Source of the DNA: Muriicola sp. Z0-33
GTDB taxonomy: Bacteria > Bacteroidota > Bacteroidia > Flavobacteriales > Flavobacteriaceae
DNA length: 64,000 nucleotides
Direction of reading: 5' to 3'
NCBI RefSeq assembly: GCF_026126425.1
Contig: NZ_JAFMPW010000002.1
Location: 558,001 to 622,000 of the forward strand
Numbering within the stretch: position 1 is the first letter of the stretch; each line of letters opens with the position of its first letter. Positions 1 through 17,850 of this stretch are shown here, piece after piece. The notes beneath the pieces were generated by a model. The model searched no databases and was not told the DNA's origin. It was given only the letters and a program-made list of their open reading frames with translations. Made by a program: the position numbers and the translations under genes.

Positions 1-1457
1 ATTTCCAGAATTTAAGTGTGGTTCAGAGTCCTAACGTAAACAGTTTCCAGTTTAAAGGGGTTAACTTCTATTCCTTATTTGGTAAACTGGATTATAACTG
101 GGATGAAAAATACTACGTAACCGGGGTAATCAGAAGAGACGGTTCCTCCAGGTTTGGTGGAAATAACAGATATGGTACTTTCCCTGCGGTTTCAGGTGCA
201 TGGAGGGTTATTGCAGAGCCATTTATGCAAGACCAGGATATCATCTCCGATTTTAAAATCAGAGGTGGTTGGGGACAAATGGGTAACTCTAACAACGTTG
301 ATCCAAATAACCAGTTCTCTTTATTCGCATCTAACAGAGGAAATACTTTCTATCCTGTAGATGGTCAGAACAGTGGTGCTAACGAAGGGTTTGCCCAGAG
401 TAGAATTGGTAACCCGGATGCAAAGTGGGAAACCAGTACAACAACCAATATCGGGTTTGATATCGGTTTATTTAACGATAAGTTAGAGATCATATTAGAC
501 TGGTGGGAAAAAGATACTGAAGATCTATTGTTCCAGGTACCTCTTGCTGGGGTAACAGGTAACTTTGCTTCTGCTCCATCTGTAAATATCGCCAGTATGA
601 GTAACAAGGGTGTTGATTTCCAGATTGTAAACAGAGGAAACATAACAGAAGATTTATCTTATACCCTTACTTTAAACAACTCCTTCCTTTCCAATGAAAT
701 TACCTTCCTTGCAGATGGTATAGAATTCTTTGACGGAGGTTCTTATAGAGGTATCCGCCCAATTAGAAATGCAGTAGGGCAGTCTATCTCTACTTTCTTT
801 GGATATAAAGTTGCCGGTTATTTTAACAGCCAGGCAGAGGTTGACAGTTCTCCTGCTCAGGATGGTGCCGGGATTGGACGTTTCAGATATGAGGATGTAA
901 ATGGTGATGGAGCAATTACTCCTGACGACAGAACATTCCTTGGTAGTGCTGTACCAGATTATACTGGTGGTGCTACAATCAACTTACGTTACAAGAATCT
1001 TGAATTTGAAACGTACTGGTATGCTTCTATTGGAAATGAGATTTGGAATCAGTCCAAATGGTTTACAGATTTCTTCGGAACTTTTGAAGGTTCTGCCAAA
1101 GGAGTTAGGGCCAAGAATTCATGGACACCGGAGTTAGGAAACAACGCTGGCGCTCCAATTTGGGAAAGTGCATCTAACCTAAGTACCAGTGCTGCAGAGA
1201 ACTCTTGGTATGTAGAAGACGGATCTTTCTTAAGATTACAGCGTTTGGCATTTATCTACAATTTTGACACCGACATGGTTGAGAAATGGGGTATGAGCAA
1301 ATTTAGCTTAGGGCTTTCCGCTAACAACATCTGGACAATCACTGATTACAGCGGTTTAGACCCTGTAGTTTCTGGTCCTGATACCAATTTTGGTATTGAT
1401 GTGGGTAACTATCCTGTAACACCAAGTTATTTAATTAGCCTGGAGATAGGTCTTTAA
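1..1457 (+). CDS. susC: SusC-like TonB-dependent outer-membrane transporter, C-terminal part
   Basis: About 485 residues of the C-terminal beta-barrel of a SusC/RagA TonB-dependent transporter; the reading frame is open to base 3, so the gene starts left of the window. Seen: the family hallmark RRDGSSRFG followed by a [11 protein letters not shown] block near the start, alternating aromatic beta-strands, an [15 protein letters not shown] segment and a C-terminal strand ending SLEIGL. A full SusC is about 1000 residues, so roughly half is here. It imports oligosaccharides across the outer membrane using TonB energy. SusD follows at once, the standard pair, so this is the end of a polysaccharide utilisation locus. 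The substrate cannot be read from the barrel; nearby sulfatases suggest a sulfated glycan (inference). The GTG at 18 is internal, not a start. Confidence 0.95.
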
Positions 1458-1515
1458 TATTTAACCGACTAAGATGATGTATAAATTTTTTATATCTTTA
1501 AAACAAAAATTAACT

Positions 1516-3276
1516 ATGAAAACTATGAGTAGAGTAAAGAAACTTACCCTCTGTGTGATGGCACTATTAATGGTGACTGTCTCTTGTAGCGACGAATTTC
1601 TCGAAATTGCGCCTACAGGATCCCTAGCGGATGCACAGGTTGGAACCAAAGATGGTATTGAAGGTCTTTTAATTGGTACCTACGCTGCCTTGAATGGGGT
1701 GTTTGGCAACCGTTTTGAAGGTCCAAACCACTGGATCACCGGATCTATCCTTGGAGGTGAAGCCAACAAAGGAACAGATGCGGGAGATTATGGCTCCATT
1801 AATCCTGTACAAAGATTTGAGCATGATGCCACCCAGGGAGACCTTAACAACTTATGGAGAGGTAGATTTGAAGGGGTTAGCCGATCAAATGCTGTTTTGG
1901 CGGCAATCGCTAATGCAGATGATCTTACCGCAGGAGATGCTGCACGTTTAACAGGCGAGGCTAGAATGTTAAGGGGTCATTTCTATTTTGACCTTAAAAA
2001 GCATTTTAACAGCGTTCCCGTTTTTGACGAAACCGTTGCAGCTGCAGACATTATTACAATTCCTAACACTCCGGATGTATGGCCACAAATTGAGGCAGAT
2101 TTTCAATTTGCATTTGACAACCTTCCGGCAGTTAACGGAGCAGGTAGGGTAAACAAATGGGCGGCAGGTGCATACCTGGCCAAGGCCTATTTATTCCAGG
2201 GGAAATTTGCACAGGCTAAAACTATGTTCGATGACGTAATTGCCAATGGTGTTACTTCAGACGGACAAGCCTACGCCCTACTCGATGATTATTCTGCTAT
2301 TTATAATGCGGAAAACGACAACCATGCAGAATCTGTTATGGATGTGGAATCTGCTAACAATACAGGTAGTACTCAGAATGCCAACTATTTTGATGACTTA
2401 AACTATCCATACAATACGGGTCCTGATGGTCCTGGTAACTGCTGTGGATTCTTTCAGCCAAGTATAGAATTAGGTAACTCTTTCAGAACTGATGCTAATG
2501 GCCTTCCATTATTAGACGGTTCTTACAATGACGCAGCCAACGCTGTTGCCAATAACTTTAAGCATGTTGTTGTTGACGGAAATGATGAAGGTACTTTTGT
2601 TGAAGATGCCGGTAACTTAGATCCTCGTATAGATCATTCTATTGGAAGAATGGGTATCCAGTACCTGGATTGGATAGAGCACCCAGGATCTGCCTGGATC
2701 AGAAGTTTCCCATATGCCGGGCCTTATTCGCCTAAGAAGTATATCTATTACAAGTCTCAGGAAAACTCCTTTACAGATGGAAGTTCCTGGACGCGTGGAT
2801 ATGCTATTATGAACTACACCATTATTCGTTTTGCTGACGTTCTTTTAATGGCTGCTGAAGCTGAAATTGAAGCTGGTTCATTGGAACAGGCCAGAACTTA
2901 CGTTAATATGGTAAGAGCAAGAGCCGGTTTGGCAGAGCATTGGGTTAAAAATGCCGATACTGATTTAGATGAAGCTAATTACGTGATTGGTGAATACCCA
3001 GCATCTGCTTTCGCAGATCAGGCTTCAGCACGAACTGCAGTCCGTTTCGAAAGAAAATTAGAATTATCTGGTGAAGGACATCGTTTCTTCGACCTGGTTC
3101 GTTGGGGAGTTGCTGCTGAAACTCTAAATGCTTATCTACAGTATGAAGGGCAGTTCTTAGTAACTAAGTTTGGTGGTGCCAGCTTTGCGGCAGGTAAAAA
3201 TGAATACCAGCCAATACCACAACCTCAAATAGATATTCAAGGAGCTGATGTATTAACACAGAATCCCGGATACTAA
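1516..3276 (+). CDS. susD: SusD-like surface glycan-binding lipoprotein
   Basis: Starch-binding-associating SusD/RagB family protein, about 586 residues. It sits on the cell surface, lids the SusC pore and binds glycan. I prefer the ATG at 1516 over the in-frame ATG at 1474, because it gives a compact lipoprotein leader (MKTMSRVKKLTLC..., lipobox TVSC, Cys24) followed by the usual SDEFLEIAP. Further family signs: NADDLTAGDAARLTGEAR with MLRGHFYFDL (TPR region), VLLMAAEAEIEAG with TYVNMVRARAGL, and near the C-terminus RFERKLELSGEGHRFFDLVRWG followed by a PIPQPQID motif and a terminal NPGY. The gene begins 58 bases after susC, so they are co-transcribed, and a strong terminator closes the pair. 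Substrate unknown. Confidence 0.95.
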   Translation: MKTMSRVKKLTLCVMALLMVTVSCSDEFLEIAPTGSLADAQVGTKDGIEGLLIGTYAALNGVFGNRFEGPNHWITGSILGGEANKGTDAGDYGSINPVQRFEHDATQGDLNNLWRGRFEGVSRSNAVLAAIANADDLTAGDAARLTGEARMLRGHFYFDLKKHFNSVPVFDETVAAADIITIPNTPDVWPQIEADFQFAFDNLPAVNGAGRVNKWAAGAYLAKAYLFQGKFAQAKTMFDDVIANGVTSDGQAYALLDDYSAIYNAENDNHAESVMDVESANNTGSTQNANYFDDLNYPYNTGPDGPGNCCGFFQPSIELGNSFRTDANGLPLLDGSYNDAANAVANNFKHVVVDGNDEGTFVEDAGNLDPRIDHSIGRMGIQYLDWIEHPGSAWIRSFPYAGPYSPKKYIYYKSQENSFTDGSSWTRGYAIMNYTIIRFADVLLMAAEAEIEAGSLEQARTYVNMVRARAGLAEHWVKNADTDLDEANYVIGEYPASAFADQASARTAVRFERKLELSGEGHRFFDLVRWGVAAETLNAYLQYEGQFLVTKFGGASFAAGKNEYQPIPQPQIDIQGADVLTQNPGY

Positions 3277-3293
3277 TATTTATCTGTTTATAT

Positions 3294-3322
3294 TAAAAGG
3301 CCGCAATATTGCGGCCTTTTTT
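3294..3322 (+). terminator. Rho-independent terminator after susCD
   Basis: An essentially perfect palindrome, with AAAAGGCCGCAAT running into ATTGCGGCCTTTT, followed by more T residues. It lies 18 bases after the susD stop. The A-tract on the left arm could let it work on both strands. It separates susCD from the next gene at 3384. Confidence 0.85.
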
Positions 3323-3332
3323 ATTTGCCAAA

Positions 3333-3363
3333 TTGCCGAGGTTCTTGCATTTTTGTACGTTGC
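3333..3363 (+). promoter_or_regulatory. Candidate Bacteroidota promoter for the FG-GAP lipoprotein gene
   Basis: TTG at 3333-3335, a 20-base spacer and TACGTTGC at 3356-3363 resemble the flavobacterial TTG / TAnnTTTG promoter, with two mismatches in the -7 box. It lies just after the susCD terminator and 21 bases before the ATG at 3384. Pattern match only. Confidence 0.35.
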
Positions 3364-3383
3364 TTTATAATACCGTTTAAAAA

Positions 3384-6300
3384 ATGAAAATTAGATATGC
3401 CGTTGCCGTTGCAGTACTGCTAATGATCTCTTTAGCAGGATGTAATAATGAAAAAGACAAGAAACAGTTATTTCATAAAATTCTAAGCCAGGATTCTGGC
3501 CTGGATTTTAATAATAGGCTAACTGAAAACGACTCTATTAATATACTAGACAATGAGTTTGTCTATAATGGTGCTGGAGTTGCCCTGGGAGACGTTAATG
3601 GAGACGGGCTAGACGATATCTTCTTTGCCGGTAACCAGGTGGACAATAAATTATTCCTGAATCTCGGAAAATTAAAATTTAAAGATGTTTCCGAATCCTC
3701 GAACATTGGTAAACCAGATTCCCTATTATGGTCTTCAGGGGTATCTATGCTAGATATTAACCTGGATGGTTTATTAGATATCTATATATGTAATACCTTC
3801 TATAAGGATAGTACAAAAAGAAAAAATCTGCTCTATGTAAATCTTGGGAACAAGGAAGATAAAATTCCGGAATTTAAGGAAATGGCCGAAGATTACGGGA
3901 TTGCAGATAATACTTATTCTTCCCATGCCCAGTTTTTTGATTACGATAATGATGGTGATTTAGACCTGTTTATTGGTGTAAACAGAATTGAAGGTATTAA
4001 TCCCAATCAGTTTAGCCCATTAACAGACGATGGCACTTCCCTTTCCAAAGACAGATTATATGAAAATACCTGGAAAGAGGGTGAGCCTCATCCGGTCTTT
4101 ACAGATATAACTACTCAGGCAGGCATACGCTACCACGGGTATAGTCATAGTACATTAATACACGATTTTAACGAAGATGGGTGGCCGGATATCTATGTAG
4201 CAAACGATTTTTTAAGTAATGATCTGATCTATATAAATAATCAGGACGGTACTTTTAGTAACCGAGCTAATGATGTCTTTAAACATTTTAGCCTTTCTTC
4301 AATGGGAAGCGATATTACCGATATCAACAATGATGGTACAATGGACCTATTTACCACTGAAATGCAGCCCTACTACAACAAGCGAAAAAAATTATTCCAG
4401 GGTCCCAGTAGTTACCAAAAAGAAATTTTTACCAGAAAGTACAAATACAACTACCAGTATACCCGTAATACCCTTCAGCTGAATTTAGGGACCAATCCGG
4501 AAACAAACCTGCCGATTTTTAGCGAAACGGGTATGTTCGCAGGCATTCAGGAAACAGATTGGAGCTGGGCACCGCTATTTGCGGATTACGATAATGATGG
4601 TTGGAAAGACCTCTTGATTACCAATGGTTTTCCTAAAGATGTCACCGACAGAGATTTCGGCGATTTCAGGGTAACGGCGAGTAGGTTGGTCAGCAAGGAA
4701 AAACTCATAGCAGCCATCCCCGAGATTAAGATTCCAAATTTTATGTTTCGAAATAATGGTGACCTCACATTTGAGGATGCCACGGAAGAATGGGGCCTCA
4801 ACTTTGGCACCTACTCCAACGGGGCCGCCTATGGCGACCTGGATAAAGACGGGGATTTAGATCTGGTGATCAACAACATTAATGATCCTGCCCTACTGAT
4901 GGAGAACAGGGCCTCGGAACTTTCGCCTGAAGCTAATTTTCTTCGTATTAAATTGTATGGATCAGCGCAGAATCCGGATGCATTTGGCAGTGAAGTAACT
5001 ATTATTTCTGATAGCGTTAAAATAAAACAATCGCTCCTATCGGGAAGAGGATATCTTTCCAAACCGGAAAATGTATTGCATTTTGGTCTTGGAAAACTAG
5101 ACAAGGCAGATGCCATTCTGGTTACATGGCCCGGAGGTAAAACACAGCGAATAGACCAGGTTACACTCAACCAGGTACTGGAAATAAAATATGACCCCGC
5201 AAAGCTTAAAGATTTAAATGCCAATGACCTGGCAGCCAACGCACTTATGCAGGAGGTTGCTCAGCTATATGGCCTTGAACATCAAAGCAGGGATATAGAT
5301 TTTATAGATTTTAACTTCCAAAGAACGCTGCCCCATAAATTTTCCCAGTACGGCCCGGCAGTCTCTGTAGGTGACGTTAATAATGACGGATTGGATGATA
5401 TGTTTGTAGCAGCCAGTAGAAATTTTAAAGAAAAGTGGTTCCTGCAGCAAACAGACGGATCCTTTGTCCAAAAAGAAGTAGCCTACAAACAACATGAGGA
5501 ACTGGAAGAAGAAGATGCAGGGACACTGCTTTTTGATGTAGATAATGATGGGGATCTGGATCTTTATATTGCCAGGGGTTGCGCTCAGTACCCTACAGGG
5601 CATGAATACTACCGCGATCTTCTTATGATAAATGACGGCAGTGGTAATTTTGAAGAAAACACAGAAGCGCTTCCCGGTTTTAAAAACAACTCATCCGCTG
5701 TAAAAGCGGCAGATTATGACAGAGATGGCGATCTGGATCTCTTTTTAGGTAGTAGGGTCCTCCCCTTTTCCTATCCCAATTCTGACAGGTCGTATATTTT
5801 AAGGAATGAGAGCAAGGATGGTACGGTTAAGTTTGTTGATGCAACTAATGAAGTTTCAGAGGATTTAAGTAGCCCGGGAATGATAAGTGATGCCATCTGG
5901 ACCGATTTCAACAATGACTTTTGGCCAGACCTAATCCTCGCCGGAGAATGGATGCCACTGCGCTTTTTCGAAAACAATAATGGAAAACTCAACGAAATTA
6001 CAGCATCTACAGGAATACAGGATAAATCCGGATGGTGGAACAGCCTGATGGCTGCAGATATTGATAACGACGGAGATGTGGATTATGTAGCCGGGAATTT
6101 TGGCCAGAACATTTATTTTCAGGGAAGTGCTGAAAAGCCGGTTAGGTTATATGCTAAGGATCTGGATAATAACGGGATGACAGACCCCCTGATTTCCTAT
6201 TATCTCAGAGACAGTACAGGCGTAGAATACGAATACCTCTATCATCCCTGGCAGGATGTGGTAAAGCAATATGCAGAAATAAGGAAAAGATTTAATTCTT

Positions 6301-6974
6301 TTGGAGAATTTGGCGCCTCCACCCTACCCGAAATGTTTACAGACGGACTTCTTGATGACGCAGCGGTGTATGAATTCAACTATATGAAAACCTCCTGGGT
6401 TGAAAACCTCGGAAACGGGAAATTTAAAATGCATGCCCTACCTGTTGAAGCTCAACTTGCCCCTGTTTATGGTACTCTGGCAACAGATCTGGATAATGAT
6501 GGCTTTACAGATCTTCTCCTTGTTGGTAATGACTACGGGATGGAAGTTCAACAAGGAAGAGCAGATGCTTTTAGTGGACTGGTTTTAAAAAATACCGGAA
6601 ATAAGAGCTTCAGCCCTGAAACTCTGGAGCATTCACATTTCTTTGTCCCTGGTGATGCCAAGGCCCTGGTTGCCCTAGACAGAAAGGATAAAAACCCCTT
6701 ATATATAGCAAGCCAGAATAATGATTCCTTGCGTGTTTTTGAAACTATTAAAGCTATAAAACAAGAAGTGATACGTCTTAGAAACAATGAGGTAAAGGCC
6801 CAAATGGTGTTTAAAGACGGGGGTATGTCCTTGCAAGAATTCTATTGGGGAGACAGCTTCCAATCACAATCTAGCAGAACAATTTCTGCCGGAGAAAGGA
6901 TTAAAGAAATCAGATTCTTCGATAATTCAGGTAAAGAAACGCGTACGGTTAGTATTCCCCAGGCAGGATCTTAG
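3384..6974 (+). CDS. Large FG-GAP/VCBS repeat lipoprotein with ASPIC/UnbV domain
   Basis: An 1196-residue protein with a lipoprotein leader (MKIRYAV...SLAGC, Cys20). It carries about fourteen calcium-loop-like FG-GAP/VCBS motifs of the form D-x-[DN]-x-D-G-x-x-D, for example DVNGDGLDD, DYDNDGDLD, DINNDGTMD, DVDNDGDLD and DLDNDGFTD. They form two blocks, about residues 60-520 and 650-1060, likely two beta-propellers. Between them, about residues 530-605, lies an ASPIC/UnbV (CRTAC-like) segment: GSEVTI, GRGYLS, HFGLG, ILVTWPGGK. Such proteins are common beside SusCD pairs in marine Bacteroidetes; their role is not established, with surface glycan or calcium-dependent binding the usual guess. It has its own terminator-separated start, and its stop abuts the stop of the convergent sulfatase. 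Confidence 0.85.
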   Translation: MKIRYAVAVAVLLMISLAGCNNEKDKKQLFHKILSQDSGLDFNNRLTENDSINILDNEFVYNGAGVALGDVNGDGLDDIFFAGNQVDNKLFLNLGKLKFKDVSESSNIGKPDSLLWSSGVSMLDINLDGLLDIYICNTFYKDSTKRKNLLYVNLGNKEDKIPEFKEMAEDYGIADNTYSSHAQFFDYDNDGDLDLFIGVNRIEGINPNQFSPLTDDGTSLSKDRLYENTWKEGEPHPVFTDITTQAGIRYHGYSHSTLIHDFNEDGWPDIYVANDFLSNDLIYINNQDGTFSNRANDVFKHFSLSSMGSDITDINNDGTMDLFTTEMQPYYNKRKKLFQGPSSYQKEIFTRKYKYNYQYTRNTLQLNLGTNPETNLPIFSETGMFAGIQETDWSWAPLFADYDNDGWKDLLITNGFPKDVTDRDFGDFRVTASRLVSKEKLIAAIPEIKIPNFMFRNNGDLTFEDATEEWGLNFGTYSNGAAYGDLDKDGDLDLVINNINDPALLMENRASELSPEANFLRIKLYGSAQNPDAFGSEVTIISDSVKIKQSLLSGRGYLSKPENVLHFGLGKLDKADAILVTWPGGKTQRIDQVTLNQVLEIKYDPAKLKDLNANDLAANALMQEVAQLYGLEHQSRDIDFIDFNFQRTLPHKFSQYGPAVSVGDVNNDGLDDMFVAASRNFKEKWFLQQTDGSFVQKEVAYKQHEELEEEDAGTLLFDVDNDGDLDLYIARGCAQYPTGHEYYRDLLMINDGSGNFEENTEALPGFKNNSSAVKAADYDRDGDLDLFLGSRVLPFSYPNSDRSYILRNESKDGTVKFVDATNEVSEDLSSPGMISDAIWTDFNNDFWPDLILAGEWMPLRFFENNNGKLNEITASTGIQDKSGWWNSLMAADIDNDGDVDYVAGNFGQNIYFQGSAEKPVRLYAKDLDNNGMTDPLISYYLRDSTGVEYEYLYHPWQDVVKQYAEIRKRFNSFGEFGASTLPEMFTDGLLDDAAVYEFNYMKTSWVENLGNGKFKMHALPVEAQLAPVYGTLATDLDNDGFTDLLLVGNDYGMEVQQGRADAFSGLVLKNTGNKSFSPETLEHSHFFVPGDAKALVALDRKDKNPLYIASQNNDSLRVFETIKAIKQEVIRLRNNEVKAQMVFKDGGMSLQEFYWGDSFQSQSSRTISAGERIKEIRFFDNSGKETRTVSIPQAGS

Positions 6975-8483
6975 TTAATGTTCATTTTTGTGTTTATAGT
7001 CTCCGAAACGATATTTTACGGTACGCTTTAATGGAATTTGCATGCCATTAGTTTCCTCTAACCAATCATAGATAGCAGTACTCATTTCCTTAGCTATATC
7101 CTGTTTATCCGGGTCTGCAATAAGGTTATACATCTCATCGGGATCATTTTTTAAATCGTATAATTCATTTCTGTCCCAAATGCCCTGATATTTCATGTAT
7201 TTATACTGATCTGTGCGCATACCAAATACTGTAGGGGTCATTGGAAAGTCATATTCCCAATAGTATTCATAAAATATTTCCTTACGAGAGGGTGCGCTGG
7301 TGTCTCCGGTAAGTATTGGAATAAAGGAGACTCCTGGCATATTCTCTGGTTGTTTTACCCCGGCTTCTGCCAATACTGTTGGCCCAATATCAATATTCTG
7401 AACCATTTGCTCCGGGCGTATTCCTCCCTCAAATAATTCAGGACATCTCACCAGTAAGGGTACTTTTACGGATTCCTCGTAAAAATGCCTCTTATCAATA
7501 AGTCCGTGCTCTCCCCAGCTAAATCCGTTATCCCCCATATAGATGACCAGCGTAGATTCATCCAATCCTTCTTTTTCTAAATAGTCCATCACCGTACCCA
7601 CACTTTCATCCACTCCCAGAAGTGTCTCGCAATAATCTACTACCATGGCGTGAAAATCCTTATTATCATGGTACATATAGTCTACCCCATGCCAGCTAAT
7701 TCTTTGATCTGCCACCCATTGCGGCCATTTTAAATCTCTGTATTTCCCGGTCTTAGTCTGATCATAGGTAGCTGGTAATGCTATTTTATTTCCCTTGTAA
7801 CGCCCCTTATGACGACGCGCGGGTTGAAAGCCTGCATGTACCGCCTTATGTGACAAATACATAAAAAAGGGCTTTTCTTTATCCCGTTTATCAAGCCAAT
7901 CTACGGCATGCTCTGTCAGCAGATCTGTAATGTAGGTAGAGTCTTTATAAGCCACTCTCTTCCCGTTGATATTTAAAGTAGGGTTGTAATATACTCCCTG
8001 CCCGGGAAAACTTTCCCAGTGGGTAAACCCGGGTTGAGGTTCATCTCCATGACTCCCCATATGCCATTTACCAAAGAACCCCGTCTGATACCCTGCTTTT
8101 TCCAAGTGTTGGGGAAAGTATGTCAGGTTTCCGGGATCCGGTGCCTGGTTATCAACTATGGTATGTGCGTGTGAAAACTGCCCTGTTAAAATAGAAGCCC
8201 TGCTGGGAGAACAAAGCGATGTAGTCACAAAAGCATTGGGTAAATAAGCCCCTTCAGCGGCCAATTTATCCATATTGGGGGTTTCTAACCAGGGAACTTT
8301 TCCGGTAAAACCCATATAATCAAAACGGTGATCATCTGTAAGGATAAAAATAACATTCCTTTGTTTCTTCTTTTTTACAGTAGCCATTCCCGGTGCTGTG
8401 TCAGGATTGGGTGCAAAATCATTGCTGCTTGCTATAAACGCAAAACTGCACAAAAAGAGGAAGACAATTTTTAAGTATTTCAT
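6975..8483 (-). CDS. Family S1 formylglycine sulfatase, exported
   Basis: Arylsulfatase-type hydrolase of 502 residues that removes sulfate esters from glycans. N-terminal hydrophobic signal (KIVFLFLCSFAFIASS). Catalytic site: C91-S-P-S-R, the C-x-P-x-R motif whose cysteine becomes formylglycine; metal ligands include the DD of FILTDDHR (residues 50-51) and the DN of GDNGFSWGEHG. GKWHMG and SHKAVH supply further active-site Lys/His. The C-terminal subdomain (YDLKNDPDEMYNLI) is typical of S1 enzymes resembling N-acetylglucosamine-6-/iduronate-type sulfatases; the exact subfamily and sulfate position cannot be read. It lies downstream of an esterase and another sulfatase on the same strand, probably one transcription unit belonging to the neighbouring susCD locus. 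No anaerobic maturase or FGE gene is in the window. Confidence 0.92.
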   Translation of the reverse strand: MKYLKIVFLFLCSFAFIASSNDFAPNPDTAPGMATVKKKKQRNVIFILTDDHRFDYMGFTGKVPWLETPNMDKLAAEGAYLPNAFVTTSLCSPSRASILTGQFSHAHTIVDNQAPDPGNLTYFPQHLEKAGYQTGFFGKWHMGSHGDEPQPGFTHWESFPGQGVYYNPTLNINGKRVAYKDSTYITDLLTEHAVDWLDKRDKEKPFFMYLSHKAVHAGFQPARRHKGRYKGNKIALPATYDQTKTGKYRDLKWPQWVADQRISWHGVDYMYHDNKDFHAMVVDYCETLLGVDESVGTVMDYLEKEGLDESTLVIYMGDNGFSWGEHGLIDKRHFYEESVKVPLLVRCPELFEGGIRPEQMVQNIDIGPTVLAEAGVKQPENMPGVSFIPILTGDTSAPSRKEIFYEYYWEYDFPMTPTVFGMRTDQYKYMKYQGIWDRNELYDLKNDPDEMYNLIADPDKQDIAKEMSTAIYDWLEETNGMQIPLKRTVKYRFGDYKHKNEH

Positions 8484-8589
8484 ATGACTTTGAAGTTAAT
8501 TGAATGTACGGCCCGGGCCTTGAAAATAAACAAAAAATTAGAGTTTTTTACGCATTTTTCAATGACTCCCCTGGTATTTACTATTGTTC

Positions 8590-9309
8590 TTATTTTTTTT
8601 TCTCCTGTAGCATCAACCAATCATACAACTCCTGGGTGGTATATGCCTGTACCCATGAATTATGACCCACACCCTCATAGGTGGTCAATTTCACTGGATA
8701 GCCCATAGATTTAAGCTTTTTTACCATTTCTTCTGATTCTGAATAGGGCACAGATTGGTCCTCAGTGCCATGAAATACCCATATGGGCAATTCCTTATTT
8801 ATCCAGGAAGCGTAGGGTAAAGGGGTCATCCCACAGACTACGGCCAAAGCTGCAAATTTATCCGGATACTGTACAACAAGTTCCCAGGCAGCGCCTCCTC
8901 CCCTGCTTAAGCCGGTTAAATACACCCGGTTTGTATCTACCCGGTTATTGGAAATAACGGTATCTAATAATTGCATTACCGCCCTGGTATTCCACCATTT
9001 CTTCTTATGCGGATTTTGAGGTGCCAGGATAAGAAATGGGAACTGCTTCCCTTCTGCAATAAGCTTAGGCGGACCGTTAGATTTTAATGTAGCCAGGCTA
9101 TCTCCAGACTCTCCTCCCCCATGTAAGAATAGCAATAAGGGAAATTTTTCATTTGCCCTCTCTTCATAATCCTCGGGGAAATAGAGGTAGTATCTTAAAT
9201 TTTCAATGGTGACGGTCTCCTCAACATCTTCAATCAAAACAGACTTGCTTTGGGCGGCACAACTACCCAGTAGTAAACAACTCATAAAAAAAAATAGATA
9301 TTTACCCAT
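8590..9309 (-). CDS. Alpha/beta-hydrolase lipoprotein esterase
   Basis: A 239-residue alpha/beta-hydrolase of the dienelactone-hydrolase / prolyl-oligopeptidase-like esterase type. Leader with lipobox LGSC (Cys17). Oxyanion-hole loop FLHGGGESGD at 62-70, nucleophile elbow GLSRG (Ser135), acid in HGTEDQSVP (Asp184) and His216 in GVGHNSW, so the triad is complete. Short one-domain esterases of this kind in PULs are often acetyl- or feruloyl-type glycan esterases (family knowledge), but the substrate is not determined here. It lies between two sulfatases on the same strand (55 bases from the upstream one, 106 from the downstream one), suggesting removal of ester decorations from the same sulfated polymer. 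Confidence 0.85.
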   Translation of the reverse strand: MGKYLFFFMSCLLLGSCAAQSKSVLIEDVEETVTIENLRYYLYFPEDYEERANEKFPLLLFLHGGGESGDSLATLKSNGPPKLIAEGKQFPFLILAPQNPHKKKWWNTRAVMQLLDTVISNNRVDTNRVYLTGLSRGGGAAWELVVQYPDKFAALAVVCGMTPLPYASWINKELPIWVFHGTEDQSVPYSESEEMVKKLKSMGYPVKLTTYEGVGHNSWVQAYTTQELYDWLMLQEKKK

Positions 9310-9364
9310 CTCAGCATCCTTTCAAGGCAATTAAGATACTATAATTAACCGTTCGCTGTCAACC

Positions 9365-11095
9365 TTAGCCGCCCATTTTAAATGAATGATTTTCGGAATA
9401 ACGACTAAGTCGTTTTTGTGCATCCCAAATTCGTACCTTCCAATAGTATATCTTACCGGCCAGGAGGTCCCCTTTGTGAACAATTTCGTTATATTCTGGG
9501 GAATCTACACGGCCACTATCCCAAACATCACCGATATTGGTATTGATATTTTCTTCTGTGGAAGCCACCAGGATCTGAAAGGAAGTCTGAGAAGTTGAAT
9601 GTCTGGAGGCCTTCCAGCTATATGCAGCCCTCTTCTCATCAGAGTTATTCTTAATAAACTGCACGGATAGTTCCACAGGTCCTTCCGAAAAATTATCACT
9701 ATGGTCTATTATCATAGCATCTAAACGACTTCTGAATTGTTGTAGTTTGCCTGCAAATTTGGGATCCCCAGCCAGATTTCGGGATTCACTTGGGTCAGTT
9801 TTCAGATGATATAGTTCCTCTAATGACTTGTCATTTATATACCTGAAATATTTCCAGTCTTTTGTTCGCAATCCCTCACTCGGTGGTATGTCGTTAAATT
9901 CCCAAAGGTGTTCAATCAGCACCGTATCTCGTTTAAATTCATAAGCAGGCTTATAGACTACAGGCATTAAACTTTTCCCTTGCCAGCTCTCTGGGGGGGA
10001 TACCCCCGCAATATCCAGTATGGTAACAGGTATGTCGACATTCAATGTCAGGGCATCACTTTTTTTAGCGGTTCTATTCCTAGGATCATATATGATCAAT
10101 GGTACCCTGATAGAATTATCATATAAAAGCCACTTCCCCGCCAGTTGGCGTTCCCCAAGAAAATAGCCATTATCTCCCATAATGATGATCACAGTATTCT
10201 TATCCAGGCCTTTATTCTTTAAGGTTGTCCTTATTTTTCCTATTTCCCTGTCTATCCCGGATATCATGCGATAATATCCCTTTAAGCTATGCTGGTACTT
10301 CTGGGGGGTATCATACCGCCAGGTCCAGCGTAACCTGTTAAAACCGTTACGTACAATCTCAGGTAGCGCATTAAAGTGCTTAGCTTCCCCTGATGCCGGC
10401 GGGGGTATGGTTGCCCCCTGGAGAAATTTATCCGATTCCTCCTGCCAGAAATATTGTTTTTCCGCACTATCATGGGCATGAGGAGCACTAAAACTAAGAG
10501 AAAGGCAAAACGGTGTATTGGGATTTGCTTTACTAATAAAATCGATAGCCTTTTGCCCGGTATACCTGGTAAGATGTACGGTATCCTGCCCGAGGGTTTT
10601 GTAATAGTATCCCCTTCTATCTTTAAAATTACCGTTTCTATCATAAGATTCGTACTCATGAAATTGACTTTGAAGATCAGTGTACCTGACTCCGTATTTA
10701 CCATAAAAACCAGTGTAATACCCATTATTTTTTAGAATTTCCGGATAGGAATTCCTCATATAAAGTGCTCTTATCTTTTCATTGCCAAAATCGTATCTAT
10801 GTGTGCGTTCATAAACCCCTGTCAGAATACTTGCCCTGCTCGCTGCGCAAATAGGCGTCGTTACCATAGCATGGCTAAAATAAGTTCCTGCCTGGGCCAA
10901 CTGGTCCATTTCCGGAGTACGGGCATATTTGTTACCCGCAAATCCTAAAGCGTCAAACCTCTGATCGTCTGTAAGTATAAAAATGATGTTTGGGCGATTT
11001 TCCGAATTCCGGATATTCACCAATTGATAAGCCAGGCCTACTTCAGGAAAGCACAGGAACCATACTAATATCAGAGACAATGGCGATAATTTCAT
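9365..11095 (-). CDS. Sulfatase with C-terminal GH78-like Fn3 module
   Basis: A 576-residue exported S1 sulfatase. Signal peptide about residues 1-22. The active site reads C83-A-A-S-R, so the usual proline is alanine (C-x-A-x-R); this variant exists in the family and is expected still to be matured by FGE. Metal ligands: LTDDQR (43-44) and [10 protein letters not shown], where the usual GEH is GER. The catalytic domain ends near residue 470. About residues 475-576 form a beta-sandwich with [24 protein letters not shown] and SENHSFKMG. This strongly resembles the N-terminal Fn3 domain of GH78 alpha-L-rhamnosidases, here used as a C-terminal appendage. It is the first gene of the minus-strand sulfatase-esterase-sulfatase run. 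Substrate unknown; a sulfated deoxy-sugar polymer is possible (inference). Confidence 0.88.
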
Positions 11096-12790: not shown

Positions 12791-15124
12791 TCAGGACCGG
12801 ATAACTTCACCGGCACTAATTAGGAAAAGTTCACCAAGGATTTTTGATGTATCCAATATGGCTTGCTGAGGGGTAAGGGCTGTGTCCGAAATTCCGGAAA
12901 CCACCCTAGAAATATTATGATCTACCGCGCCTTTTAAATTCCATGTAGATGTTTGAGCTACAGTTAGATATGCCGAAAAATTGTGATGCCCGGATCCCGG
13001 CCTTTCCCCAATGATATGCACTATTGCATGACTTTTTGATCCTCCTGAATCCTGGCCAAACAGTACTTCTCCACAGGCATAGCCAGCCCTTACGCGCCCG
13101 TTCTTTATTACAATATGTTTGTTGCTCAATGAAAAGTTGTGGCCTTTAAGTGTTTTTATGAGTCCCTCCAAGAAAGGAAAGATATGCCCTTCATCCATTA
13201 AAGCCCTTGCATTTAATCCGTCAGAAATTATTATTTGAATATCTGGCGCGTTTCCATTCCATGAATTTCTTATCGATTTTAGGTTTCCAATATCCTTTGG
13301 ACTTAATACTTCTCCAGATTCGGGATGATAAACGTAGTCTTTCCTGTTTTCAGATTGTGTGGTAATAGGAACAGCAGCCGGAATGCTTTGAACAAATGAA
13401 TCATTAATTTCTGTCCATAAACTCACCTTGGCATCCTGGTATAAATAATGTACTTGCTGGTCCAGTTCCGGCTTAAGGTCCCAATAATGCTCTCCATATC
13501 CTTGTGCAATAGGCACGCCCCTTTTCTCAACACGAACAAGGGCTTGTCTTCCTTCTTCGTATATATTTTCGAGAGTTCTGGGATCATTCTTAGCCTTTTT
13601 GAATTTGTAATACACCCAGAGGGGATCACCAAAATGTTGGGTGGGATTACCTTTCTCATCAATTACCTCGAGTTTTTTAAAGAATTCCCACATGGCATCA
13701 TTTACTTTGTACCCAAATTGCTCCCTTACCTTAATATGGTTATTAAATGCCGTGGTTAGGTAACTAAGCATAGGATCATTTTTTGTAGGTAAAGCCATCA
13801 AATAGGCCGGATTTGCTGGCATTACCTGCTCTATACACCAATCCAGGTCTTCTAAATTAACATCCATATGCAGAGTAGAACAGATGTCTAAACCAATAGT
13901 TAATCCGTGAAGCTTACCCATAACGGTGTCTTCCAGACAACACCTTACCAACTGCTCTTTAGTTCTGAATACTTCGGGGCCAATAAAGCCCGCAACATCA
14001 TTTACATGCACCCAGGAGTTGTTCTTCCCTTTAAGTGCATTAATCTCTTGTTTTAGGACCCTGAGAAAGCCATATTTTCTGGATTCGTGCATAAGCATGT
14101 CGAAGCCTTCTGCGTGGCCGTTGGTTAAATCTGCACCTTGACCCGTTTCTGCATAAAATCCGTACTGCCCATCTCTTTGGGCAGCGTACTTGAGCATTTT
14201 TTCAATAGTCAGATCAAAGGTGTGGTTGGCTTTAACCGTACCGGCAATACTTTGAAACCAGATCCCGGTAGATCCGGGATTTTCTTTTTCTACCTCAGCC
14301 TGTATGTCTACATGTGAGAGAACACAATTGGGAATTGTTTCTTCTAAATTAAAACTTGTAATAATATCAAAAAGGGCGTTTTCAATTTTAGCAACGGAAG
14401 CTGGCTCACTGGATACGGGGTTGGTCCCTAAGACGACATCCCCTACCGCGTAAGACCAGGCATTAAAAACTTGCCAGGAAATGTCTTCTATATTATCGGT
14501 TGGAGAGTTGGGTTGTACTCTGGCACCCATATAACCTTTGCTGCCTATTTTGCTGTTTGGCAATGGATTAAATACTTTTTGCCCTATTTGGATAAGTTCC
14601 TCATTGGTCATTAGTTTAACCAGGCAGGCAATGGTATCACTGCTAAGGCCGGGCATAAGTTCTTTTATCTTTTCCTCTGGTTGTGATAGGGTAAACTCTT
14701 TTAGCTCCTGTAATGTCCATTGTTCTAAATCCTGATTTGGAACAACCGATTGCCTAATTAATTCCTGGAGCTCGTCCTTGAAAACGACATATTTGTTGAG
14801 GCTTTCTATACGTGTATTCGCCAGCAATTCTCTGGCGTGGGTTCTGGAGTTATTATCAACAGCTGCAATATTTAAGGTTTTGTCCCCTTCTTTAAATTCA
14901 TTAGCGGCCCCTAATATTTGTTTGTAGAGGGTAGCATCAAACTTTCCATTCACCCTGTTGATATATCCCAATATATCTTCTCCGGTCTTTGGTTTTTTGA
15001 TAATTGTCCCCGCCAAATCAGAATTAATGACCTCTTCTCTTGAACCGAAAAGATTACATCCATTTAGTACTAAAACAGAAGCTCCTGTTAAGCCCGCTTG
15101 TTTTAAAAAGTCTGTTCTGGTCAT
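12791..15124 (-). CDS. eutBC: Ethanolamine ammonia-lyase EutB-EutC fusion with export-like leader
   Basis: A 777-residue fusion of both subunits of adenosylcobalamin-dependent ethanolamine ammonia-lyase (ethanolamine to acetaldehyde and ammonia). The EutB part spans about residues 45-515: RVQPNSPTD (Arg202, Gln204), GTNPVS (Asn235), ETGQG (Glu326), VAGFIGPE, MGKLHGL and GLDIC (Asp413). These correspond to the Arg/Gln/Asn/Glu/Asp substrate pocket of enterobacterial EutB. The EutC part spans about 525-777: SDGLNARAL, KNGRVRAG, GERPGSGHHNFSAYL, VDHNISRVVSGISDTAL. The N-terminus is odd: MTRTDFLKQAGLTG then a hydrophobic run to NGC (Cys23). This resembles a Tat (RRxFLK) or lipoprotein leader with one arginine replaced, although the enzyme is normally cytosolic. 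No EutA reactivase, shell genes or cobalamin riboswitch are visible. Gene identity is certain; location is uncertain. Confidence 0.93.
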   Translation of the reverse strand: MTRTDFLKQAGLTGASVLVLNGCNLFGSREEVINSDLAGTIIKKPKTGEDILGYINRVNGKFDATLYKQILGAANEFKEGDKTLNIAAVDNNSRTHARELLANTRIESLNKYVVFKDELQELIRQSVVPNQDLEQWTLQELKEFTLSQPEEKIKELMPGLSSDTIACLVKLMTNEELIQIGQKVFNPLPNSKIGSKGYMGARVQPNSPTDNIEDISWQVFNAWSYAVGDVVLGTNPVSSEPASVAKIENALFDIITSFNLEETIPNCVLSHVDIQAEVEKENPGSTGIWFQSIAGTVKANHTFDLTIEKMLKYAAQRDGQYGFYAETGQGADLTNGHAEGFDMLMHESRKYGFLRVLKQEINALKGKNNSWVHVNDVAGFIGPEVFRTKEQLVRCCLEDTVMGKLHGLTIGLDICSTLHMDVNLEDLDWCIEQVMPANPAYLMALPTKNDPMLSYLTTAFNNHIKVREQFGYKVNDAMWEFFKKLEVIDEKGNPTQHFGDPLWVYYKFKKAKNDPRTLENIYEEGRQALVRVEKRGVPIAQGYGEHYWDLKPELDQQVHYLYQDAKVSLWTEINDSFVQSIPAAVPITTQSENRKDYVYHPESGEVLSPKDIGNLKSIRNSWNGNAPDIQIIISDGLNARALMDEGHIFPFLEGLIKTLKGHNFSLSNKHIVIKNGRVRAGYACGEVLFGQDSGGSKSHAIVHIIGERPGSGHHNFSAYLTVAQTSTWNLKGAVDHNISRVVSGISDTALTPQQAILDTSKILGELFLISAGEVIRS

Positions 15125-16362: not shown

Positions 16363-16388
16363 AGGCGTTTATTTTTTACTAAACGCCT
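16363..16388 (+). terminator. Hairpin terminator between M28 peptidase and serine hydrolase
   Basis: Inverted repeat AGGCGTTTA / TAAACGCCT around an 8-base T-rich loop, followed on the plus strand by TTACTTTTT. It lies 43 bases after the peptidase stop. It overlaps the last codons of the convergent serine hydrolase gene, so one strand's coding sequence doubles as the other's terminator. Confidence 0.5.
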
Positions 16389-17850
16389 TTACTTTTTCAT
16401 TGGTATTATTTCTTAGCAGGAAAATATCCAGTGAATCTTCAAGTTCATTATTTACGAATCTCATTTTCGAAGGCGATCCATCAATTATAAAAATATTATC
16501 TCCGATATAGGTAAGTTCGTTTGTACCATTACCAATAAATCCTTTTATGTACAATTTTTTATCCCTAACAACTAATTCTATTTCTTCCCCAAAGAGGATA
16601 TGAGTGTATTTACCCGTGATCAGTTGAATTAATTCACTTGTTAAAGGCTTTTGAAGTGATTTGTCTATTGGTTTATACCATTGATGCGTTTTTATAATAC
16701 TGTTTCTTAACTGATCTAATACTGGGATTCTATTAGTATTGGAGCCATTTCCCAATAAGGCTATTCCGTTACCTCCTTCCATTGTCCCGTATATATGACC
16801 GCCAATACCGGTATTGGCTCCGCCATGAGAAAACCAATCATAATTGCCAAAGCCATATCTTCTTTCCCAGCCTAAACTCCAACCCCCCAAGACTTTGGAA
16901 GTAACAATAGCGGTCACTCTTTTTGCTACTTTGTTAGATATAACTGTATTGTTTTTATTTCTTAGGGCATTTTGCATTTCAATGACAAAAGTTGCCATAT
17001 CTGAGGGGGTAGACCACAATCCTGAAGCCGCTATTTGCGGGGTGATTGGCAAACCGTTTCCAACTATTTGGCCATTTTCATCATGGGCTTTAGCTACATT
17101 AGCAAGAAACCCAGGTTCATTAGGCTGCTTCATAGTGGTATTTCTTAAGCCAAGAGGTTTAAACAGGTATTTATCTGCCAAATCAGCCAAAGGTATTCCC
17201 AAGCTGTCTTCTACAGCCATTTGAGCAATCACATACCCCCCGCCACTATAGCTCCAATGAGTACCCGGTTTCCATTTTATCTCAATTTCCGAGTCATATC
17301 CAGGGATTTGGCCTTTTAAGCTTTGTACAATTGTAGGTATAGTATCCCCTTCATAAAAATCTGTGAATCCATGCTGTGAAGTTCCTGCGGTATGACTTAG
17401 TAAATGTTCGAAGGTGATTTCAGTGTCCTTTAAAAATTCGCTTTCAGGCAATGTCCAGCGTTTGAGATAGTTAGAAACCGGGTCTTTTAAGCTAATGAGC
17501 CCTTGCTCTTCTAGGATGGCAAACAAGGTAGCCGTTACTGGTTTGGCTATAGAGGCAGTTGAATAAGCAGTACTATCATCAATCAGCTCCTTAGACACTA
17601 CATCTTTAATGCCCCATGCTGCGGTCCAAACTACCTGATAATTTTCAATAACAGCCACGCTTAGGCCATTCAGACCATTTAAATTCATAGCATCTTCCAC
17701 TGCATAAACCGTGCTGTCATTTTTTGCCAGGTTATTAATGGCAACTTCTTTTTTGGAATTGGTTTTGTTGCTGGTATTTTCAGTACATCCCAGAATAAAT
17801 GAATGGCAAATAATAAAAACCATTAAACCCTTATAATTTAATCTTTGCAT
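16369..17850 (-). CDS. Class-C beta-lactamase-like serine hydrolase, lipoprotein
   Basis: A 493-residue penicillin-binding / beta-lactamase (PF00144) fold enzyme. Lipobox ILGC (Cys22). Active-site motifs: S100-I-A-K103 (SxxK), Tyr201-Ser-Gly in THWSYSGGGY (YxN position with altered third residue) and H342-G-G in SHGGANTG (KTG equivalent). An additional C-terminal domain of about 90 residues (GKYTHILFGEEIELVV...) is like the beta-sandwich tail of EstB/Pab87-type enzymes. The family includes esterases, D-amino-acid peptidases and carboxypeptidases. A real antibiotic-hydrolysing role is not supported, as the YSG and HGG variants fit esterase/peptidase members better. Single gene. Confidence 0.85.
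   Translation of the reverse strand: MQRLNYKGLMVFIICHSFILGCTENTSNKTNSKKEVAINNLAKNDSTVYAVEDAMNLNGLNGLSVAVIENYQVVWTAAWGIKDVVSKELIDDSTAYSTASIAKPVTATLFAILEEQGLISLKDPVSNYLKRWTLPESEFLKDTEITFEHLLSHTAGTSQHGFTDFYEGDTIPTIVQSLKGQIPGYDSEIEIKWKPGTHWSYSGGGYVIAQMAVEDSLGIPLADLADKYLFKPLGLRNTTMKQPNEPGFLANVAKAHDENGQIVGNGLPITPQIAASGLWSTPSDMATFVIEMQNALRNKNNTVISNKVAKRVTAIVTSKVLGGWSLGWERRYGFGNYDWFSHGGANTGIGGHIYGTMEGGNGIALLGNGSNTNRIPVLDQLRNSIIKTHQWYKPIDKSLQKPLTSELIQLITGKYTHILFGEEIELVVRDKKLYIKGFIGNGTNELTYIGDNIFIIDGSPSKMRFVNNELEDSLDIFLLRNNTNEKVKAFSKK

Follow-up and report, generated by a model that had tools for sequence, protein, structure and literature searches.

A fused ethanolamine ammonia-lyase with an export-type leader in Muriicola sp. 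Z0-33 and its relatives in three bacterial phyla

Introduction

Can a radical enzyme that depends on adenosylcobalamin (AdoCbl) work outside the inner membrane? To our knowledge, all AdoCbl radical enzymes described so far reside in the cytoplasm or in shell organelles within it. The question is raised by one gene in a 64,000-nucleotide stretch of Muriicola sp. Z0-33 (contig NZ_JAFMPW010000002.1, positions 558,001 to 622,000), here called the window, which encodes both subunits of ethanolamine ammonia-lyase (EAL), EutB and EutC, in a single chain behind a leader that resembles a signal for twin-arginine translocation (Tat). A preliminary description of the locus had posed two alternatives, an exported enzyme or a leader that is the relic of a membrane-associated form. 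We consider it likely that this is an extracytoplasmic, AdoCbl-dependent one-chain EAL that does without a microcompartment and cleaves ethanolamine beyond the inner membrane. Such enzymes are a known kind, and what would be new is the extracytoplasmic location; among the matches listed, the open-licence literature yielded no paper that describes an exported EAL.

A one-chain ethanolamine ammonia-lyase

The coordinates, the strand and the presence of both subunits in one chain are as first described, and the parts of the gene are as follows.

12791..15124, minus strand: fused EutB-EutC EAL of 777 amino acids (open reading frame, Pfam, PDB matches, AlphaFold2 model, fold match)
15056..15124, minus strand: leader, residues 1-23, MTRTDFLKQAGLTGASVLVLNGC, with R3 and F6 of the Tat motif, T4 in place of the second arginine, and Cys23
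14927..15055, minus strand: residues 24-66, a poorly conserved linker (24-46) and the stretch ahead of the Pfam EutB match (47-66)
13637..14926, minus strand: EutB domain, residues 67-496, with R202, Q204, N235, E326 and D413 (Pfam, alignment)
13514..13636, minus strand: segment joining EutB and EutC, residues 497-537 (Pfam, alignment)
12827..13513, minus strand: EutC domain, residues 538-766 (Pfam, profile-PDB match, fold match)

Pfam EutB matches residues 67-496 with 439.6 bits (cut-off 25) and Pfam EutC matches residues 538-766 of the same chain with 103.9 bits (cut-off 25.8). The window protein also passes the NCBIfam cut-off for EutB (578.5 vs 554) and stays below that of the NCBIfam EutC equivalog model (66.1 vs 230); its EutC domain is divergent. 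A PDB sequence search matches EutB of Listeria and E. coli, and a search with the profile of the clade described below matches EAL light chains as well. The AlphaFold2 model has a mean predicted local distance difference test score (pLDDT) of 78.1, falling below 50 over residues 1-37. It superimposes on E. coli EutB (3abo_A) with a Z-score of 38.6 and a root-mean-square deviation (rmsd) of 2.3 over 426 aligned residues, and on EutC chains with Z-scores of 22.9 (5ysr_D) and 22.3 and rmsd of 4.5 and 5.0 over 236 residues. Diol and glycerol dehydratases, kindred B12 enzymes and as such expected, also appear in the fold list at Z ~20; the sequence matches are to EAL.

Retention of the pocket residues, noted at the outset, extends to all five E. 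coli equivalents: by alignment R202, Q204, N235, E326 and D413 of the window protein correspond to R160, Q162, N193, E287 and D362 of E. coli EutB, which we take to line the substrate pocket. Among the homologues assembled below, the equivalents of R160, Q162, N193 and E287 are present in 59/59 fused proteins and 42/42 other EutB proteins, and that of D362 in 59/59 and 39/42. A serine-to-threonine exchange at the position of E. coli S295 marks the fused clade (58/59 fused proteins). The window protein is predicted to convert ethanolamine to acetaldehyde and ammonia in an AdoCbl-dependent reaction.

Four further cysteines set the fused proteins apart: Cys395, Cys396 and Cys430 occur in 57, 59 and 58 of 59 fused proteins vs 0, 0 and 1 of 42 others, and C167 in 48/59 vs 0/42 (the codons from C430 to C167 span 13835-14626 of the window). 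Disulfide formation by Cys395, Cys396 and Cys430 as evidence for export was considered and set aside, since leaderless fused proteins must carry at least some of these residues.

Distribution and ancestry of the leader

Homologues were assembled in several ways. Species genomes scanned with the window protein gave 21 loci, the source of part of the Bacteroidota rows; named strains among these members belong to Leeuwenhoekiella, Flaviramulus, Saonia and Robertkochia. A second set, not drawn with the window protein, came from a Pfam EutB search within the same family, in which 20 of 397 genomes were carriers (14 fused, six conventional). A profile of 27 fused proteins was then applied to 395 genomes of the same phylum (13 carriers, two fused), to 345 genomes from the phylum that includes the Desulfobacterales record L036 (32 carriers, a long fused protein in 16), and to 343 genomes from that of the Pirellula record L037 (25 carriers, of which 13 fused); the labels Desulfobacterota and Planctomycetota for the latter two phyla are ours. 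The 59 fused rows comprise 27 from Bacteroidota, 18 from Desulfobacterota (one genome with two) and 14 from Planctomycetota, and the 42 other rows comprise 37 conventional EutB proteins and five leaderless fusions. L035, titled Deltaproteobacteria and assigned to Myxococcota by the tree tool, was grouped with Desulfobacterota since it is nested there. Near copies (L153/L164, L051/L057, L048/L054) were retained, and three genomes lie outside both row sets: G1125 (a 130-codon fragment at a contig end), G961 (no locus) and G1345 (EutC part only).

Leaders were sorted by script, according to the residue pair at the twin-arginine position or a Sec-like character, and five labels were then corrected by hand. 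The raw labels were RK 14, RR 8, RT, RD and RQ one each, Sec-like 1 and none 1 for Bacteroidota; Sec-like 10, RR 6, RQ 1 and none 1 for Desulfobacterota; RR 12 and none 2 for Planctomycetota; and none 41 and RR 1 for the other rows. By hand, L023 became R-E rather than Sec, L142, L149 and L036 became Sec-type, and L097 was scored as having no leader, its arginine-rich frame lying upstream of the start. L149 is ambiguous, with MRRAI followed by a strongly hydrophobic stretch, and can be argued either way; L022, whose contig begins within the leader, was left unscored.

With these corrections, an export-type leader is found in 55/58 scorable fused rows vs 0/42 other EutB rows. The 55 comprise 24 twin-arginine (RR) leaders, 14 RK, four R-T/D/Q/E (the window included) and 13 Sec-type. 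Among the 26 scorable Bacteroidota rows (one being unscorable) there are eight RR, 14 RK and four R-T/D/Q/E leaders; Desulfobacterota have 13 Sec-type, four RR and one row with none; Planctomycetota have 12 RR and two with none. Absence of the leader from homologues, which would have spoken for a cytosolic protein, is thus not what was found.

In a tree of all 101 rows the 42 other EutB proteins lie on one side of a branch (support 100) and all rows with a leader fall in a 56-row crown, the unscored L022 included (Shimodaira-Hasegawa-like approximate likelihood ratio test 98), the tree being of a quick kind, midpoint-rooted, with a warning from the tool of long branches, L151 among others. Leader presence changes once on this tree and leader type nine times. 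The leader-bearing rows are therefore not independent events, and their counts share ancestry. Predicted export of the fused clade is well supported, because the type of leader changes while a leader is retained and because the leader is also conserved in the window's own subclade.

What is new is not the fusion as such, since separate leaderless fusions exist. L095, L096, L098, L128 and L129, which lie in Desulfobacterota and Planctomycetota outside the leader-bearing clade, are leaderless one-frame EutB-EutC fusions of 705, 705, 706, 734 and 798 open codons; the fusion seems to have arisen more than once. One genome (G864) holds a second, divergent, leaderless fused EAL, L151, beside its Sec-type L140.

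The leader of the window protein

The leader itself is as first described, with one arginine of the twin pair lost and a hydrophobic stretch running to Cys23; the lipobox candidate is LNGC at residues 20-23. R3 and F6 are invariant across 23 aligned Bacteroidota, in which position 4 is R in eight, K in 11 and another residue (T, D, E or Q) in four. Within the window's subclade (n=7) mean pairwise identity is 0.60 for the leader, 0.26 for the linker and 0.67 for EutC, and Cys23 is present in 6/7 rows; between the window and L046, 18/23 leader residues and 10/23 linker residues are identical. Sec-type leaders of Desulfobacterota have a stronger hydrophobic stretch than the window leader, and a weak stretch is expected of Tat-type leaders. 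A count of zero RR leaders in the neighbours at flavobacterial loci carries no weight here, the pattern having overlooked an MNRRFLL leader in L047.

The window leader seems to descend from a Tat signal, lacks the second arginine and appears still to be under constraint. The two initial alternatives share one ancestry. Predicted export is well supported for the clade, and the window protein itself may or may not still be exported; its route could be a flavobacterial Tat system that accepts RK or R-T leaders, or Sec, as a lipoprotein. Sequence speaks more strongly for export of the clade than for export of the window protein.

Gene neighbourhoods of the fused enzymes

Recurrent neighbours were compared in Desulfobacterota between 17 fused loci and 15 further EAL loci, three of which are leaderless fusions, with neighbour profiles built from the fused loci; contig ends cut several loci, so that the counts are lower bounds. 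Aldehyde:ferredoxin oxidoreductase (AFOR) lies near at least 9/17 fused loci, the match in L144 being weak and 5.8 kb off. Five loci have AFOR at 28-152 bp, upstream in three and downstream in two, an arrangement that argues against adjacency through a single chance event. A TorF-type putative porin is found at no fewer than 7/17 loci, within 190 bp upstream in six and farther in L136. BtuF-like and BtuC-like genes each occur at 4/17 or more; the top NCBIfam models for this transporter are BtuC-like and corrinoid-ATPase ones, which score below their curated cut-offs. A phosphatase like PchP (match to 4as2, E 2.2e-18) stands 43 bp upstream in L035, 1/17 loci.

A conserved membrane protein of 260 amino acids, here IMP260, lies within ~300 bp downstream at 8/17 fused loci at the least. 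It is represented by L137:10622-11419, with relatives in L035, L036, L138, L139, L140, L143 and L145, downstream of the Sec-type EAL. Among the members scanned, none of the Pfam or NCBIfam families matches IMP260, and a PDB sequence search gives nothing under E 0.3. Its AlphaFold2 model (pLDDT 73) resembles transporters of the major facilitator superfamily (best Z 16.5, rmsd 6.5, 222 residues), a likeness that proves little for a helical protein.

All 13 Sec-type loci (13/13) have at least one of the TorF-type porin, AFOR, IMP260, BtuCDF-like genes and the PchP-like phosphatase. Of the four RR loci in Desulfobacterota, L146-L148 have none of these neighbours and L144 only the weak AFOR match. 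AFOR, IMP260, TorF-type and BtuF/BtuC-like genes were found in none of the 15 other EAL loci of Desulfobacterota, and in none of the 14 Planctomycetota loci, the 26 Bacteroidota loci or the window. In Bacteroidota, six related genomes are syntenic, and this accounts for the only neighbours common to more than a few loci; in Planctomycetota the neighbours that recur are, judged by sequence, not eut genes. In one Bacteroidia genome a metallophosphoesterase of the TIGR03768 family with a lipoprotein-like start (L026:6172-7902) precedes an RR-type fused EAL by 87 bp.

A model for ethanolamine cleavage outside the inner membrane

In the model that we favour, the ancestor of the clade would have acquired a twin-arginine-type export leader. 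RR members would cross the inner membrane by Tat with AdoCbl already bound, most Desulfobacterota members would be exported by Sec, and those of the window's subclade may depend on either Tat or Sec and might end up as Cys23 lipoproteins. The substrate would be ethanolamine released from phosphoethanolamine or from the head groups of phospholipids. Ammonia and acetaldehyde would form outside the cytoplasm, so that a shell organelle would not be needed; the products may enter by diffusion or be oxidised inside, acetaldehyde by AFOR in anaerobes. Sec-type members would have to receive the cofactor outside, a task in which the adjacent BtuCDF-like genes would have a part. Here we infer the actual export, the activity of the holoenzyme, the timing of cofactor loading, the source of substrate and the fate of acetaldehyde. 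For the broader proposition, that in three phyla exported one-chain EutBC deaminates ethanolamine in the periplasm in place of the microcompartment and so forms toxic acetaldehyde outside the cytoplasm, with Tat members exported AdoCbl-bound and Sec members loaded outside with the aid of a neighbouring BtuCDF-like corrinoid system, we see even chances.

The cellular equipment was surveyed alongside. TatC is above cut-off in 20/20 genomes, the window's own included, and in 16/17 genomes of a separate scan, the remaining one having a 43-position fragment. The PF01923 adenosyltransferase is present in the window's genome and absent from 5/25 genomes, including four Desulfobacterota; the survey covered this adenosyltransferase family alone. 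EutH is absent from the window's genome and found in 0/30 genomes, conventional EAL carriers included, so that it does not discriminate. No AFOR was found in the window's genome.

If true, light- and oxygen-sensitive AdoCbl would be at work outside the inner membrane, which raises the question of how the cofactor is loaded and repaired there. The clade would suggest that the acetaldehyde problem, which Eut microcompartments solve, has been solved a second time in evolution, and marine and sediment bacteria would gain nitrogen from phospholipid head groups without importing ethanolamine.

Points against the model and alternative explanations

Several observations weigh against export of an active enzyme. 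Three leaderless fused rows sit outside the crown, at its base. In the window leader the second arginine is missing (R3-T4), the hydrophobic stretch scores 1.52 vs a median of 2.64 and a lowest value of 1.29 in 25 flavobacterial lipoprotein-like leaders, and the Asn at lipobox position -2 is seen in 0/25 of these. Cys23 is present in 9/15 non-RR and 0/8 RR Bacteroidota (9/23 in all). No widely shared partner gene was found in the Bacteroidota or Planctomycetota loci. AFOR genes are abundant in the Desulfobacterota genomes concerned (4-25 in five tested), and the adjacent AFOR has no leader in the N-termini examined; the second step would presumably be cytosolic because of this. Finally, the reactivase EutA was not found, so that an exported enzyme could not be repaired: the search gave one weak match per genome (20/20), in a frame of ~440-455 codons, the single one scanned being FtsA. 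The six conventional EAL carriers of the same family likewise show only a weak EutA match.

Foremost among the alternatives is a relic leader, in which the ancestor was exported by Tat and the flavobacterial enzyme, after loss of the second arginine, is now cytosolic or merely membrane-tethered. The replacement of that arginine by K in 14 and by T, D, Q or E in four of 26 scorable Bacteroidota speaks for it, as do the weak hydrophobic stretch and atypical lipobox in the window. We regard it as rather unlikely, given that the subclade leader is almost as conserved as EutC while the next 23 residues drift, that R3 and F6 are kept in 23/23 Bacteroidota, and that Cys23 is kept in 6/7 subclade rows.

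Export of a protein that is no active EAL, with a binding or structural role instead, would agree with the EutC domain falling under the NCBIfam equivalog cut-off and with the serine-to-threonine exchange in 58/59 fused rows; conservation of all five pocket residues in 59/59, and the AFOR and BtuCDF-like genes adjoining in part of Desulfobacterota, make it very improbable. Slightly less probable still is that the start codon was mis-called and that the EAL is an ordinary cytosolic one, its true start lying near the EutB domain. TTG37, TTG52 and GTG58 are other possible starts, yet the annotated ATG is the sole ATG ahead of the EutB domain, with no further one before residue 67, and the leader's protein sequence is conserved over 23 Bacteroidota and present in three phyla. 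That the leader is a microcompartment-targeting peptide, such as EutC carries in the classical Eut system, would account for a short peptide tied to the enzyme by a variable linker, but it is scarcely credible, given that relatives have RR motifs or strongly hydrophobic Sec-type leaders and that BMC-domain (PF00936) shell genes occur in 0/27 non-planctomycete fused-clade genomes, the window's own included. It was rejected for the window because that genome has no such gene.

BMC-domain genes are present in 5/5 Planctomycetota genomes tested, located away from the EAL gene.

Comparison with known systems

E. coli EutBC (3abo) and Listeria EutB (2qez) share the domains and pocket residues of the window protein, with fold Z-scores of 38.6 and 37.5 for EutB and ~22 (rmsd 4.5-5.0) for EutC chains. 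Unlike E. coli EutBC, the window protein is one chain rather than two and has an added N-terminal export-type leader, and unlike classical Eut its gene has no eut operon, BMC-domain genes, EutA or EutH. According to a review, the microcompartment shields E. coli and Salmonella from acetaldehyde (PMC9397018). On the tree the fused clade has its own branch, apart from conventional EutB. The leaderless fusions L095, L096 and L098 (~705 amino acids), L128 and L129 hold both domains in one frame, like the window protein; they group with conventional EutB and, having no leader, represent separate fusions.

A precedent for a corrinoid enzyme outside the cytoplasm is given by the reductive dehalogenases (PceA/RdhA), which face the outer side of the inner membrane after transport by Tat (PMC10624902). 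RR-type fused EALs could be carried out in a like manner, with AdoCbl already bound. No sequence relation to the fused EAL is claimed. PceA/RdhA have another fold and chemistry and are not AdoCbl radical enzymes. For the substrate, P. aeruginosa PchP (4as2) is an analogue of the partner upstream of the L035 member, with no counterpart in the window; it is described as periplasmic and as hydrolysing phosphorylethanolamine to ethanolamine (PMC3170909).

Surroundings of the gene

The window gene is solitary: an M28 peptidase on one side is transcribed divergently from it, a phosphofructokinase on the other convergently. Nine neighbours, reaching 18-1457 and 16369-17850, were scanned with Pfam and NCBIfam: a SusC/SusD pair, an FG-GAP/ASPIC protein, two sulfatases, an esterase-like protein, the phosphofructokinase, the M28 peptidase and a beta-lactamase-fold protein. 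The early remark that no shell proteins, EutA or B12 riboswitch lie nearby agrees with these other families and with Rfam, which at its gathering score finds no riboswitch in the window and only a tRNA. The same is true of acetaldehyde dehydrogenase: no EutE aldehyde dehydrogenase is among the nine neighbours, the rest of the genome not having been searched for it. The SusC/SusD pair, FG-GAP/ASPIC protein, two sulfatases and esterase-like protein at 18-11095 likely form an adjoining locus for the utilisation of sulfated glycans.

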